A stretch of DNA of 64,000 nt from Hymenobacter sp. YIM 151500-1 (GTDB taxonomy: Bacteria; Bacteroidota; Bacteroidia; Cytophagales; Hymenobacteraceae), in contig NZ_CP110139.1 of NCBI RefSeq assembly GCF_025979885.1, positions 2,356,001-2,420,000 on the forward strand. The letters run 5' to 3'. This document shows, piece after piece, positions 3,537 to 47,977 of the stretch. A program made the translations under genes and the position numbers. The notes under the pieces are model-generated. The model saw only the letters and a list, made by a program, of their open reading frames with translations, ran no database searches and had not been told where the DNA came from. Position 1 is the first letter of the stretch, and each line of letters starts with the position of its first letter.

Positions 3537-3713
3537 AGGTGATAGGTGAGGGAGTGAATGGTAACAGGTGACAGGAGAACGGTCATGCTGAGCTTGCCGA
3601 AGCATCTCTACTGGGGGTAACCTCAATCGTGCGGACGAAGCGGCAGAGATGCTTCGACAAGCTCAGCATGACGGTCCTCCTGTCACCTGTTACCCCCTCA
3701 CCTATCACCTCTC
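3535..3713. repeat. Long inverted repeat built from two REP-like hairpins
   Basis: Bases 3535-3608 pair with 3645-3713, with a 7-base insertion in the left arm and a few mismatches. Each arm carries one copy of the GTCAT-type REP-like hairpin: 3582-3610 on the plus strand and 3645-3672 on the minus strand, with stem ATGCT/AGCAT and loops GAGC-TTGC-CGA and GAGC-TTGT-CGA. The outer part of each arm is a different word (AGGTGATAGGTGAGGG). It fills the gap between two convergent genes and may work as a two-way terminator. Confidence 0.9.
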
Positions 3714-12339: not shown

Positions 12340-13266
12340 CTACTGGCGCAGGATGGACTGGTATTTGGCGGAGTTGGTGGGGTCTACTTCGCTGAGCAGG
12401 GTTACGACCTGGGTTTTCTGCTGCTGGTCGGGGCTGGTGCGGAACACGTTGGCAATTTCGTCGGCCTTGGTGGTGAAAAAGGCGCGGGCCAGTAAGGTGC
12501 CGGGGCGGCGCTGCACCGCCTGCTGCACGCCTTGCAGCGCCGTGGCAATGCTGGCGCGGGCTTCCTCGGGCTTGGTAATGAACACGTCCATGCCCTGGCG
12601 GTAGTAGGCGTACATGCCGGTGCGGAAAGCTTCCAGCTGCGGATCCTGGAGGTTGTTGAGCAGCCAATACCGGTTGCTGGCTTCACTGTCGCTCCACCCT
12701 GCGTCGTTTTCATTGGTGACGTTCTGCGACAAGGCATTCGTCTGAATCGTGCGGGCCCGGTCGTAGTAGGGCGAGCCGCTCAGGCGGGCGAAGCTGTCCT
12801 GGTCCATGCCAATGATGATGTAGGCATAAAAAGACAGCAGTGACGACAAATTGCCTACGAACGTATTCTCCGAGTAGTCGAGCGGGTTTTGGGGTGAGTA
12901 GTTGAACACCCAGCTGGGGTCGGCGTAGCTCAGCAGATTAGTTTCGTAGCCGGTGCCGTACACGGGGCGGGTGCTCAGAATGCGCACGGTGGCCCGGTAC
13001 GTGCCGGTTTGCGGAATATCCCGGATGCCGATAAACAAGCGACACCGAATCCGCTCCTCGGGCCGGTAGGTTTGGTTGGTGAAGGTGCGCGTGTTAAGAA
13101 ACGTCTGGATGTCGTTCTGCATCTGCTGAATCAGCTGGCGGTCCGCCACGGTGACGTTTTCGGTGGTGACGCGCACTTCGCTGAGCAGTTCCTGGGCGCA
13201 GACGGCGCCGGGTGCCAGCAACAAGGCCAGCAGGAGCAGCAAAGAAGGCAAAAAGAGGTTACGCAT
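12340..13266 (-). CDS. DUF4835 family exported protein
   Basis: This 308-residue protein starts MRNLFLPSLLLLLALLLAPGAVCAQE, a clear signal peptide. Its body (ELLSEVRVTTENVTVADRQ, TFTNQTYRPEERIRC, DPSWVFNYSPQNPLDYSENTF, GMDQDSFARLSG) matches my recollection of the DUF4835 family found across Bacteroidota. The family's function is unknown, but its steady position next to coaBC and recN suggests a housekeeping envelope role. Its ATG overlaps the end of coaB by eight bases, so the two are probably translationally coupled. Confidence 0.85.
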   Translation of the reverse strand: MRNLFLPSLLLLLALLLAPGAVCAQELLSEVRVTTENVTVADRQLIQQMQNDIQTFLNTRTFTNQTYRPEERIRCRLFIGIRDIPQTGTYRATVRILSTRPVYGTGYETNLLSYADPSWVFNYSPQNPLDYSENTFVGNLSSLLSFYAYIIIGMDQDSFARLSGSPYYDRARTIQTNALSQNVTNENDAGWSDSEASNRYWLLNNLQDPQLEAFRTGMYAYYRQGMDVFITKPEEARASIATALQGVQQAVQRRPGTLLARAFFTTKADEIANVFRTSPDQQQKTQVVTLLSEVDPTNSAKYQSILRQ

Positions 13267-13909
13267 GATGGGGCAAACGGGCAAGAACGGTACGCACGAT
13301 GTCGCGGGCCACCTCGGCCTTGAGCTTCAGCTCAAAGGTAGTCACGCGCCCGTCGGCTTCCAGCAGCGTCACTTGGTTGGTATCGTGCCGAAACCCGGCT
13401 CCCGCGTCGCGCAGGGAGTTCAACACTACCAGGTCAAAGTTTTTGCGCCGGAGCTTGTCGAGGGCGTAAGCCCGCTCATCGTTCGTCTCCAACGCAAAAC
13501 CTACCGAATATTGTTCAGGCCGCTTCGTTCGGCCCAGCGTAGCGGCAATATCCACGTTCTTGACCAGCTCCAGCGTGAGCGTGTCGCCGTCTTTTTTGAT
13601 TTTCTGGGTGGCCGCCTGCGCCGGCTTATAGTCGGCCACGGCGGCGGCAAACACCCACACGTCGGCCACCGGAGCCACGGCAGCGGCGGCGGCATACATC
13701 TGGTCGGCTGTTTCCACGCGCTGAGTACGGATGCGCGCGGCCGCAGGGTCCGGCAGGTTGGTAGGGCCGCTGATAAGGGTCACGTTCGCGCCGGCCTCGG
13801 CAAAGGCTTCGGCCAAGGCGTAGCCCATTTTGCCGGTGCTGTGGTTGCCGATGAAGCGCACCGGGTCCAGTGGTTCATACGTGGGGCCAGCCGTGACGAG
13901 GACGTGCAT
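13259..13909 (-). CDS. coaB: Phosphopantothenoylcysteine synthetase, stand-alone CoaB
   Basis: This 216-residue protein begins directly with the CoaB domain: MHVLVTAGPTYEPLDPVRFIGN, followed by HSTGKMGYALAEA and, near the C-terminal half, FALETNDERAYALDKLRRKNFDLVVLN. The enzyme ligates cysteine to 4'-phosphopantothenate with CTP, giving the substrate of CoaC in coenzyme A synthesis. In most bacteria CoaB is the C-terminal half of a fused CoaBC. Here it has its own ATG and is 301 bases away from the coaC stop. The end overlaps the DUF4835 start. Confidence 0.92.
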   Translation of the reverse strand: MHVLVTAGPTYEPLDPVRFIGNHSTGKMGYALAEAFAEAGANVTLISGPTNLPDPAAARIRTQRVETADQMYAAAAAVAPVADVWVFAAAVADYKPAQAATQKIKKDGDTLTLELVKNVDIAATLGRTKRPEQYSVGFALETNDERAYALDKLRRKNFDLVVLNSLRDAGAGFRHDTNQVTLLEADGRVTTFELKLKAEVARDIVRTVLARLPHHA

Positions 13910-14002
13910 TTTTTTGAATTAAAAATTAAGAATTAGGAATTAAAAATTGGAACGTATAGCACAACGAGGTGAAGCTATTTGGAAGATTGTTTGAAACATA
14001 CA

Positions 14003-14118
14003 AGACCGTCATGCTGAGCCCCGCGAAGCATCTCTACCGCTTCGCTGAGCAAGCGTTAAAAATTAGCCAGAGGTAGAGATACTTCAACAAGCGGACGTCA
14101 GATGAAGCATGACGGTCT
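14003..14118. repeat. REP-like inverted repeat between coaC and coaB
   Basis: The left arm (14003-14038) holds a REP-like hairpin: GTC, stem ATGCT/AGCAT, loop GAGC-CCCG-CGA. The right arm (14072-14118) is a degenerate partner with an extra stretch GGACGTCAGATGA. That stretch is shared with the perfect repeat at 14802-14933. Both arms end in GGTAGAGAT-type sequence. Confidence 0.8.
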
Positions 14119-14210
14119 ATCAACTTCCTAAACAGCTTCTCTGCGCAAGACTCTCAACCCTCACACAAGGCGAAGACGCCTCACTATTTTTACTTGTTAC
14201 TTCTCAGTTT

Positions 14211-14753
14211 CTACTTGAAAAACCTTTCCAGCTCCGCCACAATGTCTTCCGGCTCCAGCATGCGGCCGGGGCCGCTAAGGCCGCTGGCCAGCTCGCCGGC
14301 GGGCGAGTCCCAGATGGTATTGCCGTAGCTGCGCAGGCGCTGGAGGTTGGCCTGAGTGGCGGGGTGCTGGTACATATCGAGGTCCATGGCCGGGGCCAGA
14401 AACACGGGGCAGCGGGCCGAGAGGTAGACGGCATCGAGCAGGGTTTCGCAGAGGCCGTTGGCGAGGTGGGCCAGGGTATTAGCCGAGGCCGGCGCCACCA
14501 CCAGCGCATCGGCCCACAACCCCAGGTGAACGTGGTTGTGCCACTCGCCGGCTTGCTCGTCCTTCAAAAAACCCTGCAATACTGGCTTCTTAGAAAGCGT
14601 GCCCAGCGTAAGCGGCGTCACGAAGGCCGTAGCCGCCGGCGTCAGGAGTACCTGCACCTCGGCGCCGGCTTTCACCAGCAGCCGCACCAGCACCACCGAC
14701 TTATACGCCGCAATGCTGCCGCTCACGCCCAGCAGTATCTTACGCCCTTGCAT
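14211..14753 (-). CDS. coaC: Phosphopantothenoylcysteine decarboxylase, stand-alone CoaC
   Basis: This 180-residue flavoprotein has the family motifs in order: GVSGSIAAYKSVVLVRLL, LTPAATAFVTPLTL, HNHVHLGLWADALVVAPASANT with the catalytic histidine, LAPAMDLDMYQHPATQ and GELASGLSGPGRMLEPEDIV. It decarboxylates phosphopantothenoylcysteine to phosphopantetheine. The motif PAMD replaces PAMN of E. coli; from memory this is usual in Bacteroidota. It ends exactly where the linker to CoaB would start in a fused CoaBC. It is flanked on both sides by REP-like inverted repeats. Confidence 0.92.
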   Translation of the reverse strand: MQGRKILLGVSGSIAAYKSVVLVRLLVKAGAEVQVLLTPAATAFVTPLTLGTLSKKPVLQGFLKDEQAGEWHNHVHLGLWADALVVAPASANTLAHLANGLCETLLDAVYLSARCPVFLAPAMDLDMYQHPATQANLQRLRSYGNTIWDSPAGELASGLSGPGRMLEPEDIVAELERFFK

Positions 14754-14801
14754 GATTTAGAAGTGAGAAGTCAGAGGTAAGAAGTGAGAAAACTGAAAGC
14801 C

Positions 14802-14933
14802 AGAACGTCATGCCTTATCTGACGTCCGCTTGCCGAAGCATCTCTACCGCTTACCGCTTTGTTGCTAACAACAGAAGTTAGCCCGCGGTAGAGATGCTTC
14901 GGCAAGCGGACGTCAGATAAGGCATGACGTTCT
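14802..14933. repeat. Perfect 49-bp inverted repeat between coaC and rpoZ
   Basis: Bases 14802-14850 are exactly complementary to 14885-14933, with a 34-base spacer. The arms are a variant of the REP-like unit: GTCATGC, then TTATCTGACGTCCGCTTG, then CCGAAGCATCTCTACC. The middle part replaces the usual GAGC loop and is shared with 14072-14118. The absence of mismatches points to recent origin or sequence correction between the arms. Confidence 0.9.
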
Positions 14934-14954
14934 TTTATCCTGGTCGTATTCTGC

Positions 14955-15299
14955 CTACTCCGCCTTGCGGGTTTCGGTTTGCTCTTCTTCCTCGGGAGTA
15001 TGGAAGTACACTTTGCCTTCCAGGAACTCCTCTACGGCCAAGTTAGTGGGCTTGGGCAGCCGCTCGTAGTGCTTGCTGATTTCGATTTGCTCCCGGTTCT
15101 CAAACACCTCCTCCAGGTTATCGACGGTGGTGGCAAACTCGGCCAGCTTGCTATTCAGCTCTTCCTTCAGCTTCACGGCAATCTGGTTGGCACGCTTCGA
15201 AATGATGGCAATGCTCTCATACACGTTGCCGGTGTCCTCGGTGAAGTCCGACATGTTGCGGGTCACGATGGAGGCGGGGACGTTATTAGGAGTCTTCAT
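14955..15299 (-). CDS. rpoZ: RNA polymerase omega subunit
   Basis: This 114-residue protein matches the Bacteroidota form of omega: IVTRNMSDFTEDTGNVYESIAIISKRANQIAVKLKEELN is the conserved core that contacts beta-prime, and the C-terminal half is an acidic extension. Omega helps assemble RNA polymerase and take up ppGpp signals in other bacteria. It lies between bamD and coaC, an order I recognise from other Bacteroidota genomes. Confidence 0.85.
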   Translation of the reverse strand: MKTPNNVPASIVTRNMSDFTEDTGNVYESIAIISKRANQIAVKLKEELNSKLAEFATTVDNLEEVFENREQIEISKHYERLPKPTNLAVEEFLEGKVYFHTPEEEEQTETRKAE

Positions 15300-15323
15300 A
15301 TCAGGAATGTGAAAATGTGTTGG

Positions 15324-15428
15324 TAATGTGCGGAATGTGGCTGAAGGCAGTAGATGTGAAAAGTAAGAACATGCGTGGCCGCACAGCCAGCTTTATCATT
15401 TTCATATTCTACCACATTCCGCACATTA
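15324..15428. repeat. Inverted repeat between bamD and rpoZ
   Basis: Bases 15324-15340 are exactly complementary to 15412-15428 (TAATGTGCGGAATGTGG). A second word (GAATGTGAAAATG, from 15305) also recurs in reverse at about 15397-15409, but outside-in order is changed, so the arms look rearranged. The right arm includes the bamD stop codon. Confidence 0.75.
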
Positions 15429-16253
15429 ATTTGCGGCAGTTGAGTCGGCGGGTTTGAGCTTGGCTACCTGCTCACGGGCGTCTTCGTACATGCGCTCGGC
15501 GTCCTTGAGGTTTTTGCTTTTCGGATAGGTATCCACGAAATTTTGGTAGAAGGCAATGGCTTCCAGGTACCGTTCGCGCTGCTTTTCTTCCACGCTTTCG
15601 CGGGCCAGGTCGTACTGAGCGCTGAGCTTCAGGAAGGCGGCTTCCTCGTTGAAGGCCGAGGCCGGAAACTGCTGCTGGAAGCCCGCCAGCGCCGTCACGG
15701 CCGACTGGTAGTAGCGGAGGTCGTAGTAGAGGCGGGCGCTGCGGAAGGCCTTGTTCTCCAGCTTGGTTTGCAGCTCCCTGGACATATTCTCGGCCTCGGG
15801 CCGGAACTTGCTTTCGGGGTAGCGGTTCAGGAAATCCTGGATGCCTTCCAGGGCCGAGAACGTGCTGGTTTGGTCGAGCTGGAACTCCGGCGAGTCGCGG
15901 AACTGCGACTTGGCGTACATGAAGTTCGCCTCTTCGGCGTAGGGCGAGTTCGGGTAAGTGTCGGCAAACTGCCGGAAGTAGTAGGCGCTGAGCGTGTAGT
16001 TGCGCTGGCGGAAGTTGGTATTGGCAAAGTAGAACTGGGCTTTCTCAGCCTCAGGCCGGCCCTTTAGCAGCGGAATCAGCTCTTCCAGCAGGGTGCCAGC
16101 CTTGAAAAAGTCGCCTTTCTCGTAGTATTGAATGGCAGCTTCGTACTTCTTGTTTACGTCGGTGCTCTTGAGCAGCTTCTGGTAGCCGCTGCACGAGCCC
16201 AGCAGCAACGCGCTCAGCAACAAGACAAACAAGGTAGGGCGGAAAGACAGCAT
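15426..16253 (-). CDS. bamD: Outer membrane assembly lipoprotein BamD
   Basis: This 275-residue lipoprotein starts MLSFRPTLFVLLLSALLLGSC, with lipobox LLGSC. I chose the ATG at 16251-16253 because it gives this signal and lies just after a -7 element. The body is a run of TPR helices: NKKYEAAIQYYEKGDFFKAGTLLEELIPL, NTNFRQRNYTLSAYYFRQFADTYP, and similar to the end. BamD works with BamA to insert beta-barrel proteins in the outer membrane. It sits between the OstA-like gene and rpoZ. Confidence 0.9.
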   Translation of the reverse strand: MLSFRPTLFVLLLSALLLGSCSGYQKLLKSTDVNKKYEAAIQYYEKGDFFKAGTLLEELIPLLKGRPEAEKAQFYFANTNFRQRNYTLSAYYFRQFADTYPNSPYAEEANFMYAKSQFRDSPEFQLDQTSTFSALEGIQDFLNRYPESKFRPEAENMSRELQTKLENKAFRSARLYYDLRYYQSAVTALAGFQQQFPASAFNEEAAFLKLSAQYDLARESVEEKQRERYLEAIAFYQNFVDTYPKSKNLKDAERMYEDAREQVAKLKPADSTAAN

Positions 16254-18014: not shown

Positions 18015-18076
18015 CGGAAGGCCCGCTGCTAACGGCTTTCTTTGCGGGATAGTGTAGTACCATCTCTTCTCCGAAA

Positions 18077-18327
18077 CCTCACCCCCTAGCCCCCTCTCCA
18101 AAAGAGAGGAGGGACTAGTTGCTAGGTTAGCAAAGCTAGATTCTAGTTCCCCTCCTTGGAAAGGAGGGGTTAGGGGTGGTTGATTGACGGTAGAACGATG
18201 TTAGAACTAGTGCTAAAAATCGTTCTGTCGATTGTCAACTACCCCCAGCCCCTCCTTTCTAAGGAGGGGAACTAGAGCTAGAAAACTAGTCCCCCCTCTC
18301 TTTTGGAGAGGGGGCTAGGGGGTGAGG
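18077..18327. repeat. Nested inverted repeat with arms over 100 bp
   Basis: Bases 18077-18199 pair with 18219-18327, with several mismatches and small gaps. Each arm contains smaller hairpins of its own: the word CTCACCCCCTAGCCCCCTC with a mirrored GAGAG, and CCCCTCCTTGGAAAGGAGGGG. It fills the gap between two divergent genes, the OstA-like gene and tilS. Its right end is 12 bases before the tilS ATG, so it may form structure in the tilS leader. Confidence 0.9.
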
Positions 18328-18339
18328 TCCACGTCTGCC

Positions 18340-19672: not shown

Positions 19673-19773
19673 TAGAAATGAGAAGGTGAGACATGAGAAG
19701 TGAGACTTTATGCACTGGAAGCTATGCTGCCTGAACAAAGTCTCACTTCTCATGTCTCACCTTCTCATTTCTA
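19673..19773. repeat. Perfect 37-bp inverted repeat between tilS and mdh
   Basis: Bases 19673-19709 are exactly complementary to 19737-19773. The arms carry the word AGAAGTGAGACTTT, also present in the repeat at 47883-47977. It lies between two genes of the same direction, so a terminator role for tilS is possible. Confidence 0.9.
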
Positions 19774-28337: not shown

Positions 28338-28506
28338 TGTCATTCCGAGCGGAGCGAGGAATCTGAATCGCGGATTGAGCAGATTTTAGGATTGCACGGA
28401 TTTTGGTCACATTATATACAGTCATCTGTCTCGTCACCGAAATCCGCGAAATCTGAGCAATCCGCTCAATCCGCGATTCAGATTTCTCGCTCCGCTCGGA
28501 ATGACA
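28338..28506. repeat. Long inverted repeat with REP-like hairpins (GH3 fusion / bshA gap)
   Basis: Bases 28338-28410 pair with about 28434-28506 with a few mismatches. The outer ends are REP-like hairpins: stem ATTCC/GGAAT and loop GAGC-GGAG-CGA, at 28339-28364 on the plus strand and about 28480-28505 on the minus strand. The inner part uses words such as CGCGGATTGAGC. It fills most of the 318-base gap; nothing else was seen there. Confidence 0.9.
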
Positions 28507-43930: not shown

Positions 43931-44021
43931 CTGTCATCCTGAGCGCAGCGAAGGATCTGAAAAACAGCCACCAGAGCGGGGCTATTGTCCTCCAGATCCT
44001 TCGCTGCGCTCAGGATGACAG
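43931..44021. repeat. Perfect 29-bp inverted repeat of REP-like hairpins (obg / adk gap)
   Basis: Bases 43931-43959 are exactly complementary to 43993-44021. Each arm is one unit: GTC, stem ATCCT/AGGAT, loop GAGC-GCAG-CGA, then CTG. It shows the third stem version seen in the window. Confidence 0.93.
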
Positions 44022-47882: not shown

Positions 47883-47977
47883 TAGACTTGAGACAGAGAG
47901 AGGTGAGAAGTGAGACTTTCATTCTAGCATCATCAGAACGAAAGTCTTACTTCTCACCTCTCTCTGTCTCAAGTCTA
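47883..47977. repeat. 38-bp inverted repeat (hppA / M42 gap)
   Basis: Bases 47883-47920 pair with 47940-47977 with one mismatch. The arms contain AGAAGTGAGACTTT, as in the repeat at 19673-19773. It ends eight bases before the stop of the M42-like gene. Confidence 0.9.

Follow-up and report, generated by a model that had tools for sequence, protein, structure and literature searches.

The coaBC enzyme of coenzyme A (CoA) synthesis is usually a single two-part protein. In Hymenobacter sp. YIM 151500-1, the two parts are encoded by separate genes, coaC and coaB, with an inverted repeat lying between them. Both genes are found in a stretch of 64,000 nucleotides (nt) of contig NZ_CP110139.1 (positions 2,356,001 to 2,420,000), which we refer to as the window and whose own coordinates we use throughout. 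The locus raises the question of how the gene came to be divided, and whether the repeat had a part in it. A preliminary description of the window considered two possibilities: insertion of the repeat into a fused gene, or an old split into which the repeat came only afterwards. From a survey of the genus, the family and the order, the split looks old and family-wide, and the intervening repeat appears to be a secondary, later and unrelated arrival. We consider it very probable that a single fission of an ancestral coaBC gene, by a frame change in its linker and with rescue of coaB through a coupled start, was followed by separation of the genes and entry of the repeats.

A coaBC gene divided at the domain linker

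The window contains coaC (14211-14753, minus strand), encoding a phosphopantothenoylcysteine decarboxylase of 180 amino acids (aa) with its own ATG and stop codon, and coaB (13259-13909, minus strand), encoding a phosphopantothenate--cysteine ligase of 216 aa that also starts with its own ATG. Between them lies an intergenic gap of 301 nt (13910-14210, minus strand), delimited from the sequence with a script. The open reading frames (ORFs) are as first described. CoaC matched the Pfam family Flavoprotein (E-value of 7.9e-33, 113.8 bits against a gathering cut-off of 22.7) and CoaB matched DFP (2.1e-69, 233.5 bits against 22). On TIGR00521, the NCBIfam model of the fused protein with 392 positions, CoaC spans positions 2-178 and CoaB 188-391. 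The break therefore falls at the domain linker, as had been proposed. For comparison, residues 180-189 of Mycobacterium smegmatis CoaBC form the loop that links both domains, according to excerpts of PMC7794376.

The best relatives with solved structures were CoaBC 6tgv for CoaC (1.4e-33), and 5int (1.7e-47) and CoaBC 1u7u (3.3e-46) for CoaB. The K-X-K-K motif of CoaB, named in the same excerpts (PMC7794376), occurs in the window protein as the active-site loop KIKK, aligned with the 5int and 1u7u chains. Compared with bifunctional CoaBC (TIGR00521; M. smegmatis 6tgv), the two window proteins thus cover nearly the whole model in the same order and share K-X-K-K, but they are the products of two genes, the linker residues are missing, and each half scores below the fused cut-off of 219.7 bits (188.6 and 208.3 bits). 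PMC7794376, again in excerpt, states that CoaB alone is functional for Escherichia coli and inactive for M. smegmatis. Because the E. coli CoaB works alone, although that of M. smegmatis does not, it is plausible that the window CoaC and CoaB would act as ordinary separate enzymes for two steps of the CoA pathway.

Two CoaC motifs differ from those of solved chains. In the alignment, PAMDLDMY of the window protein stands opposite PAMHTEMW in the M. smegmatis chain and PAMNTLMW in that of Arabidopsis. Its ELASGL lines up with RLTGAD and RLASGD, respectively. The fused protein of L063 likewise carries PAMDLDMY and ELASGL. In E. coli, these places are taken by an active-site Asn and Cys.

The split is found throughout the Hymenobacteraceae

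We next looked at coaBC in other Hymenobacteraceae, the check that the preliminary description had proposed. A search for the DFP domain gave a match in 120 of 120 Hymenobacter genomes (genus g1). In 119 of these, the open frame with the domain measured 216-315 aa, which leaves no room for a fused protein, and the coaC and coaB pair was resolved as split in all 120. One assembly (G061, L172) had its coaB matches in three pieces, perhaps through sequencing errors. The coaC-coaB gap in the genus ranges from 3 to 838 nt (median 114.5, n = 120) and is just 3-4 nt long in three species. As chosen by a script, the coaB start was ATG in 109 genomes, GTG in six and TTG in four, with no call for the broken one; since the script favoured an ATG near the expected place, the ATG count is generous.

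All 84 genomes examined from a further five genera of the family are split as well: Pontibacter (g3, n = 50), Rufibacter (g6, n = 16), a sister genus of Hymenobacter (g5, n = 8) and two further genera (g2, n = 2; g4, n = 8). There was no fused coaBC among the 204 Hymenobacteraceae genomes examined. An assembly artefact is unlikely because the same split is present in all of these assemblies. In 76 genomes, comprising g2, g4, Pontibacter and Rufibacter, coaC and coaB overlap. The spread of the split through the genus and the other genera, together with these overlaps, supports the second of the two possibilities first considered, in which an old split acquired the element afterwards.

Fused genes are the rule in the rest of the order. 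A sample of 148 genomes gave a DFP match in 126 and none in 22. The matching genomes included 11 Hymenobacteraceae, two members of the small separate family f16, and 113 members of other families. A single frame of at least 398 aa was found in 110 of these 113, the three others being contig-edge fragments, and both domains were in one frame at 28 of 28 loci fetched from other families. We also inspected 80 named loci. These were the top hits for a query that favoured Hymenobacteraceae, and so are not a fair sample: 67 were fused, four were cut by a contig end and nine had short frames. Six of the nine short frames belong to Hymenobacteraceae (Rufibacter immobilis, two Pontibacter, two Hymenobacter and one metagenome-assembled genome (MAG) of the family).

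The repeat occupies some gaps and is absent from most

The element in the window gap (14003-14118) is a dispersed CGTC-type repeat in the form of a degenerate head-to-head dimer, identified by repeat search, by censuses of its core and pattern, and by folding. The preliminary description had an inverted repeat of a dispersed family filling the gap. The family is real, and its core GAAGCATCTCTACC has 162 copies in the 4.9 Mb genome against none for the reversed control. However, the element takes up only 116 of the 301 nt, leaving 92 nt towards coaC and 93 nt towards coaB, and it is degenerate: its outer arms are 13 nt long and, of its two monomers, only one still matches the search pattern. 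Its predicted RNA fold has -55 kcal/mol (z -5.2). A second copy (14802-14933), located between coaC and the rpoZ-like gene upstream of it, has perfect arms of 49 nt, a spacer of 34 nt and a predicted fold of -111 kcal/mol (z -16).

Across the genus, a full monomer was found in 31 of 120 coaC-coaB gaps, including that of the window, and two or more monomers in 27. Half-sites were present in 48 of 120 gaps. Conversely, 89 gaps contained no full monomer, and in 72 even half-sites were absent. These counts rest on a pattern with set mismatches, which misses repeats crossing the coaC stop. Control searches found no monomers in 2400 letter-shuffled gaps (plain shuffles) or in the 120 coaC and coaB coding pairs. 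With the gene upstream of coaC taken as the longest open frame there (none in three of the 120 loci), 117 upstream gaps could be defined, and 26 of them also held monomers. The coaC-coaB gap is therefore occupied about as often as the neighbouring one.

A reading in which a fused coaBC of the window lineage was split by insertion of the repeat is suggested by the position of the element between the two genes and by the monomers in 31 of 120 Hymenobacter gaps. We regard it as extremely improbable. The genes are also split at the 89 gaps without a full monomer and the 72 without a half-site, in the three species with gaps of 3-4 nt, and in the 76 genomes of four genera where the genes overlap and there is therefore no gap for an element. 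The survey of genus, family and order thus contradicts the repeat as the cause of the split. The preliminary description had named one outcome as fatal to its account, namely that all relatives are split without any element. All family genomes examined are indeed split, but the element is present in a number of them, as the 31 gaps with a monomer show.

In five of the 120 Hymenobacter species (L014, L117, L131, L148 and L159), coaC takes its C-terminal tail or its stop codon from a repeat of this kind. In L117, for example, coaC ends as ...ACGTCATCC-TGA-GC. The two folding repeats of the window, between coaC and coaB and upstream of coaC, may alter mRNA decay or the ratio of the two products.

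The closest described kind of element is the superfamily of CGTC-tagged repetitive extragenic palindromes (REPs). According to excerpts of PMC3733652, these are dispersed palindromes with a CGTC or TGTC tag at one end, mostly arranged as head-to-head dimers, with stems of 8-9 bp, loops of 4-5 and CCA-like tails. They are present in Bacteroidetes among other phyla, and within these excerpts the authors report finding no dedicated transposase. The window monomer begins CGTCATGCTGAGC and so carries the tag. Monomers in the 30 other gaps mostly begin CGTC or TGTC and several begin GGTC; the search pattern itself started C/T-GTCAT (up to two mismatches), and the tag is therefore partly built in. 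Read from the sequence alone, the monomer has an ATGCT/AGCAT pair, followed by mismatches, and a CTC end. On this reading it would differ from the published elements, as far as the excerpts describe them, in having about five contiguous pairs and a CTC end.

A transposase of the REP-associated tyrosine transposase (RAYT) type beside the repeat was also sought. The genome of the window strain has three Y1_Tnp matches, and in their fetched flanks there was no core or half-site with fewer than two mismatches, only Y1_Tnp genes having been sought. No convincing candidate was thus found in this genome. In the genus, 30 Y1_Tnp loci came from 15 of 21 genomes. Two loci, L242 and L257, had related dimers about 500-900 nt away, which may be chance for so abundant a repeat, and the remaining loci had scattered half-sites only.

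Two other kinds of repeat were seen. AT-rich runs of the type AATTTTTAATTCTTAATT lie directly before coaB (13910-13950), and comparable AT-rich repeats (AATTATGAATT, AATTAAGAATT) occur in the gaps of L025, L135, L142 and L165. Further long inverted repeats in the window (3560-3694, 18076-18328, 19673-19773, 28338-28506, 43931-44021 and 47883-47977) belong at least in part to other families.

A conserved frame-broken overlap in four sister genera

The junction of the overlapping genes is strikingly regular. In 75 of the 76 genomes from g2, g4, Pontibacter and Rufibacter, the coaC stop ends exactly 19 nt ahead of the TAGPT motif of coaB, and coaB is in the +1 frame. The exception is L038 (Pontibacter), with a homopolymer change: its upstream T run is longer and coaC therefore ends earlier. 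This genome was left out of the tests on the remaining 75. In all 75, the final sense codon of coaC is GTT or GCT, followed by TAA, TAG or TGA. Across the junction, the +1 frame typically reads (F/L)(K/N/S)GK(K/T)VL. This resembles the linkers of several fused proteins from other families, such as LKGKKVMITAGPT (L082) and LKGKKILITAGPT (L062), while some other fused linkers differ from it. A linker frame change in a once-fused gene would explain the junction most simply.

How is coaB translated from such a junction? Every one of the 75 genomes has an in-frame ATG, GTG or TTG that precedes the last base of the coaC stop codon by no more than 23 nt; about 30 such genomes would be expected if coaC codons were swapped for synonyms at genus usage. 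Within 53 nt, the same null model gives about 43 against the 75 observed. An invariant block in Rufibacter begins at a TTG 8 nt before the stop end, and the base preceding it varies. The start shifts in Pontibacter (GTG at -20, TTG, GTG or ATG at -17 and once ATG at -8) and is never lost. Because of these observations, we favour internal initiation for coaB in the overlap genera.

Other features of the junction weigh against this reading. A coaB-frame ATG occurs within 51 nt before the coaC stop end in only seven of 75 genomes, which would be unusual for an essential gene with a normal start, and a possible coaB start lies 10-13 nt past the coaC stop in 20 of 75 (an ATG in three). Near the overlap, the third position of coaC is the most variable (0.49 versus 0.43 and 0.43), and the coaB frame is therefore not clearly under the stronger constraint. 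Moreover, the rows behind the 75/75 and 16/16 counts are relatives, whose independence the null test overstates.

The scarcity of coaB ATG codons at first suggested programmed frameshifting. Under this alternative, the overlap genera would still make one CoaBC: some ribosomes would shift +1 at the GTT/GCT-stop, so that one mRNA would yield free CoaC together with fused CoaBC at a fixed ratio, and Hymenobacter would have dropped the mechanism, after which the genes separated and the gap opened. The constant GTT or GCT before the stop, the exact frame kept across four genera and a fused-type linker readable in the +1 frame are all in its favour. Yet the start codon near the stop in every genome, against about 30 expected, and the Rufibacter block that begins at TTG both speak for a start within coaC, and the pre-stop codon alternates between GTT and GCT, which are read by different tRNAs. 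A prfB-like frameshift site would moreover have no start codon near the junction in the downstream frame, and here one stands within 23 nt throughout; the comparison does not apply to the window, with its gap of 301 nt. We therefore consider programmed frameshifting quite unlikely, and internal initiation remains the favoured reading.

The same geometry has been described in general terms. Excerpts of the GeneTack paper (PMC3711429) define 'translational coupling' as a conserved closeness of a stop and the next start in another frame, with gene fission as one source, and the overlap genera share this geometry. Its main text contains no mention of coaBC or phosphopantothen-.

One fission or several

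The findings above are best accommodated by one coaBC fission in the ancestor of the Hymenobacteraceae. Its probable first step would be a +1-type frame change in the linker that joined the two domains. Translation of coaC would then have ended at the first out-of-frame stop, following GTT or GCT, and coaB would have been rescued through a TTG, GTG or rarely ATG start inside the coaC end, read by the same or re-initiating ribosomes in translational coupling. Pontibacter, Rufibacter and the two further genera would have kept this overlap state. In the line of Hymenobacter and its sister genus, the genes would have drifted apart, coaB mostly acquiring an ATG, and the new gap would have been entered repeatedly by dispersed CGTC-type palindromic repeats, the window element among them.

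A tree of the CoaC and CoaB proteins was built by a quick method from 111 of 233 rows and midpoint-rooted for drawing. Of the 119 Hymenobacter rows it includes 31, and of the 50 Pontibacter rows 16; L172, with its broken coaB, was left out. The Hymenobacteraceae formed one group (SH-aLRT 99), as did Hymenobacter with its sister genus g5 (SH-aLRT 100), on a long stem. The overlap genera were on one side of a branch with a support of 77.

Two or more independent fissions would be an alternative, with a frame change in the overlap genera and some other mechanism in Hymenobacter plus g5. The long stem of the latter and the support of only 77 for the overlap side are compatible with this, and family f16 suggests that a second split within the order is possible. 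On the other hand, no fused gene remains in the 204 family genomes and a single fission needs fewer changes, so we hold several fissions to be unlikely.

Some results sit less comfortably with one ancestral fission passing through an overlap. With the overlap genera on one side of a branch with a support of 77, the overlap state may or may not have been ancestral to Hymenobacter. Both f16 genomes (L064 and L239) have coaC and coaB split. Their junctions are unlike those of the Hymenobacteraceae, one having an ATG 6 nt past the stop and the other an ATGA overlap, and their rows fell among the fused ones on long branches with weak placement. The f16 split is probably an independent event, seen in two genomes only. 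In addition, three of the nine short coaB frames among the named loci come from MAGs outside the family (L303, L312 and L318). Sporadic splits or broken frames thus occur outside the Hymenobacteraceae. The three MAGs are labelled Bacteroidetes bacterium, Flavobacteriales bacterium and Labilibaculum, have coaB frames of 225, 311 and 219 codons, respectively, and may be splits or sequence errors.

Genomic neighbourhood of the window genes

Upstream of coaC and in the same direction is an rpoZ-like gene (14955-15299, minus strand; Pfam RNA_pol_Rpb6, 2.8e-11) for RNA polymerase Rpb6/omega. Downstream of coaB is a DUF4835 gene (12340-13266, minus strand; Pfam DUF4835, 6.2e-93). A start at the ATG at 13266 would mean an overlap of 8 nt with the 3' end of coaB; the ORF list places the start of this frame at a TTG at 13284. 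The coaC and coaB genes are probably carried on a single mRNA with both neighbours. A scan of 13850-15000 gave one promoter-like site (0.4 expected) and two terminator-like sites (1.2 expected). All were on the plus strand, and therefore none serves the minus-strand coaC and coaB. The coaC-coaB gap had no match to a Bacteroidetes promoter pattern, and a search of 13000-15500 against Rfam returned seven weak matches, none reaching its gathering score.

Comparison with other split coaBC genes

Streptococci have separate coaC and coaB genes. The models TIGR02113 (coaC_strep) and TIGR02114 (coaB_strep) describe a separate phosphopantothenoylcysteine decarboxylase (PPCDC) and phosphopantothenoylcysteine synthetase (PPCS), and the window proteins are likewise separate. 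They score far below both cut-offs, however (149.2 versus 261.4 and 69.8 versus 217.2 bits), and better with the fused family than with the streptococcal models. Because of these scores, the window split probably has a separate origin from the streptococcal type. The normally fused coaBC is also split in all strains of Mycoplasma iowae, and strains of M. fermentans vary (PMC8721197, in excerpt). As described there, the Mycoplasma split concerns one or two species, whereas that of the Hymenobacteraceae concerns a whole family. We found nothing on coaBC fusion in Bacteroidetes in the open-licence library searched. Neither the split in Hymenobacteraceae nor the window repeat appeared in open-licence titles or abstract openings among the matches listed, although reports may exist elsewhere.

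Split coaBC genes are therefore already known, and the Hymenobacteraceae are a further lineage, one with an instructive intermediate. The most interesting part of the finding is outside the window, in the overlap with its broken frame that 75 of 76 genomes from four sister genera retain. It provides a densely sampled fission series in the CoA pathway that would lead from a fused gene, through a frame-broken overlap with a non-ATG start, to separate genes with a gap that accepts repeats. The tempting reading of a repeat insertion as the cause of the split is corrected by this series. For annotators and for those who work on drug targets, the Hymenobacteraceae are a family with separate CoaB and CoaC.

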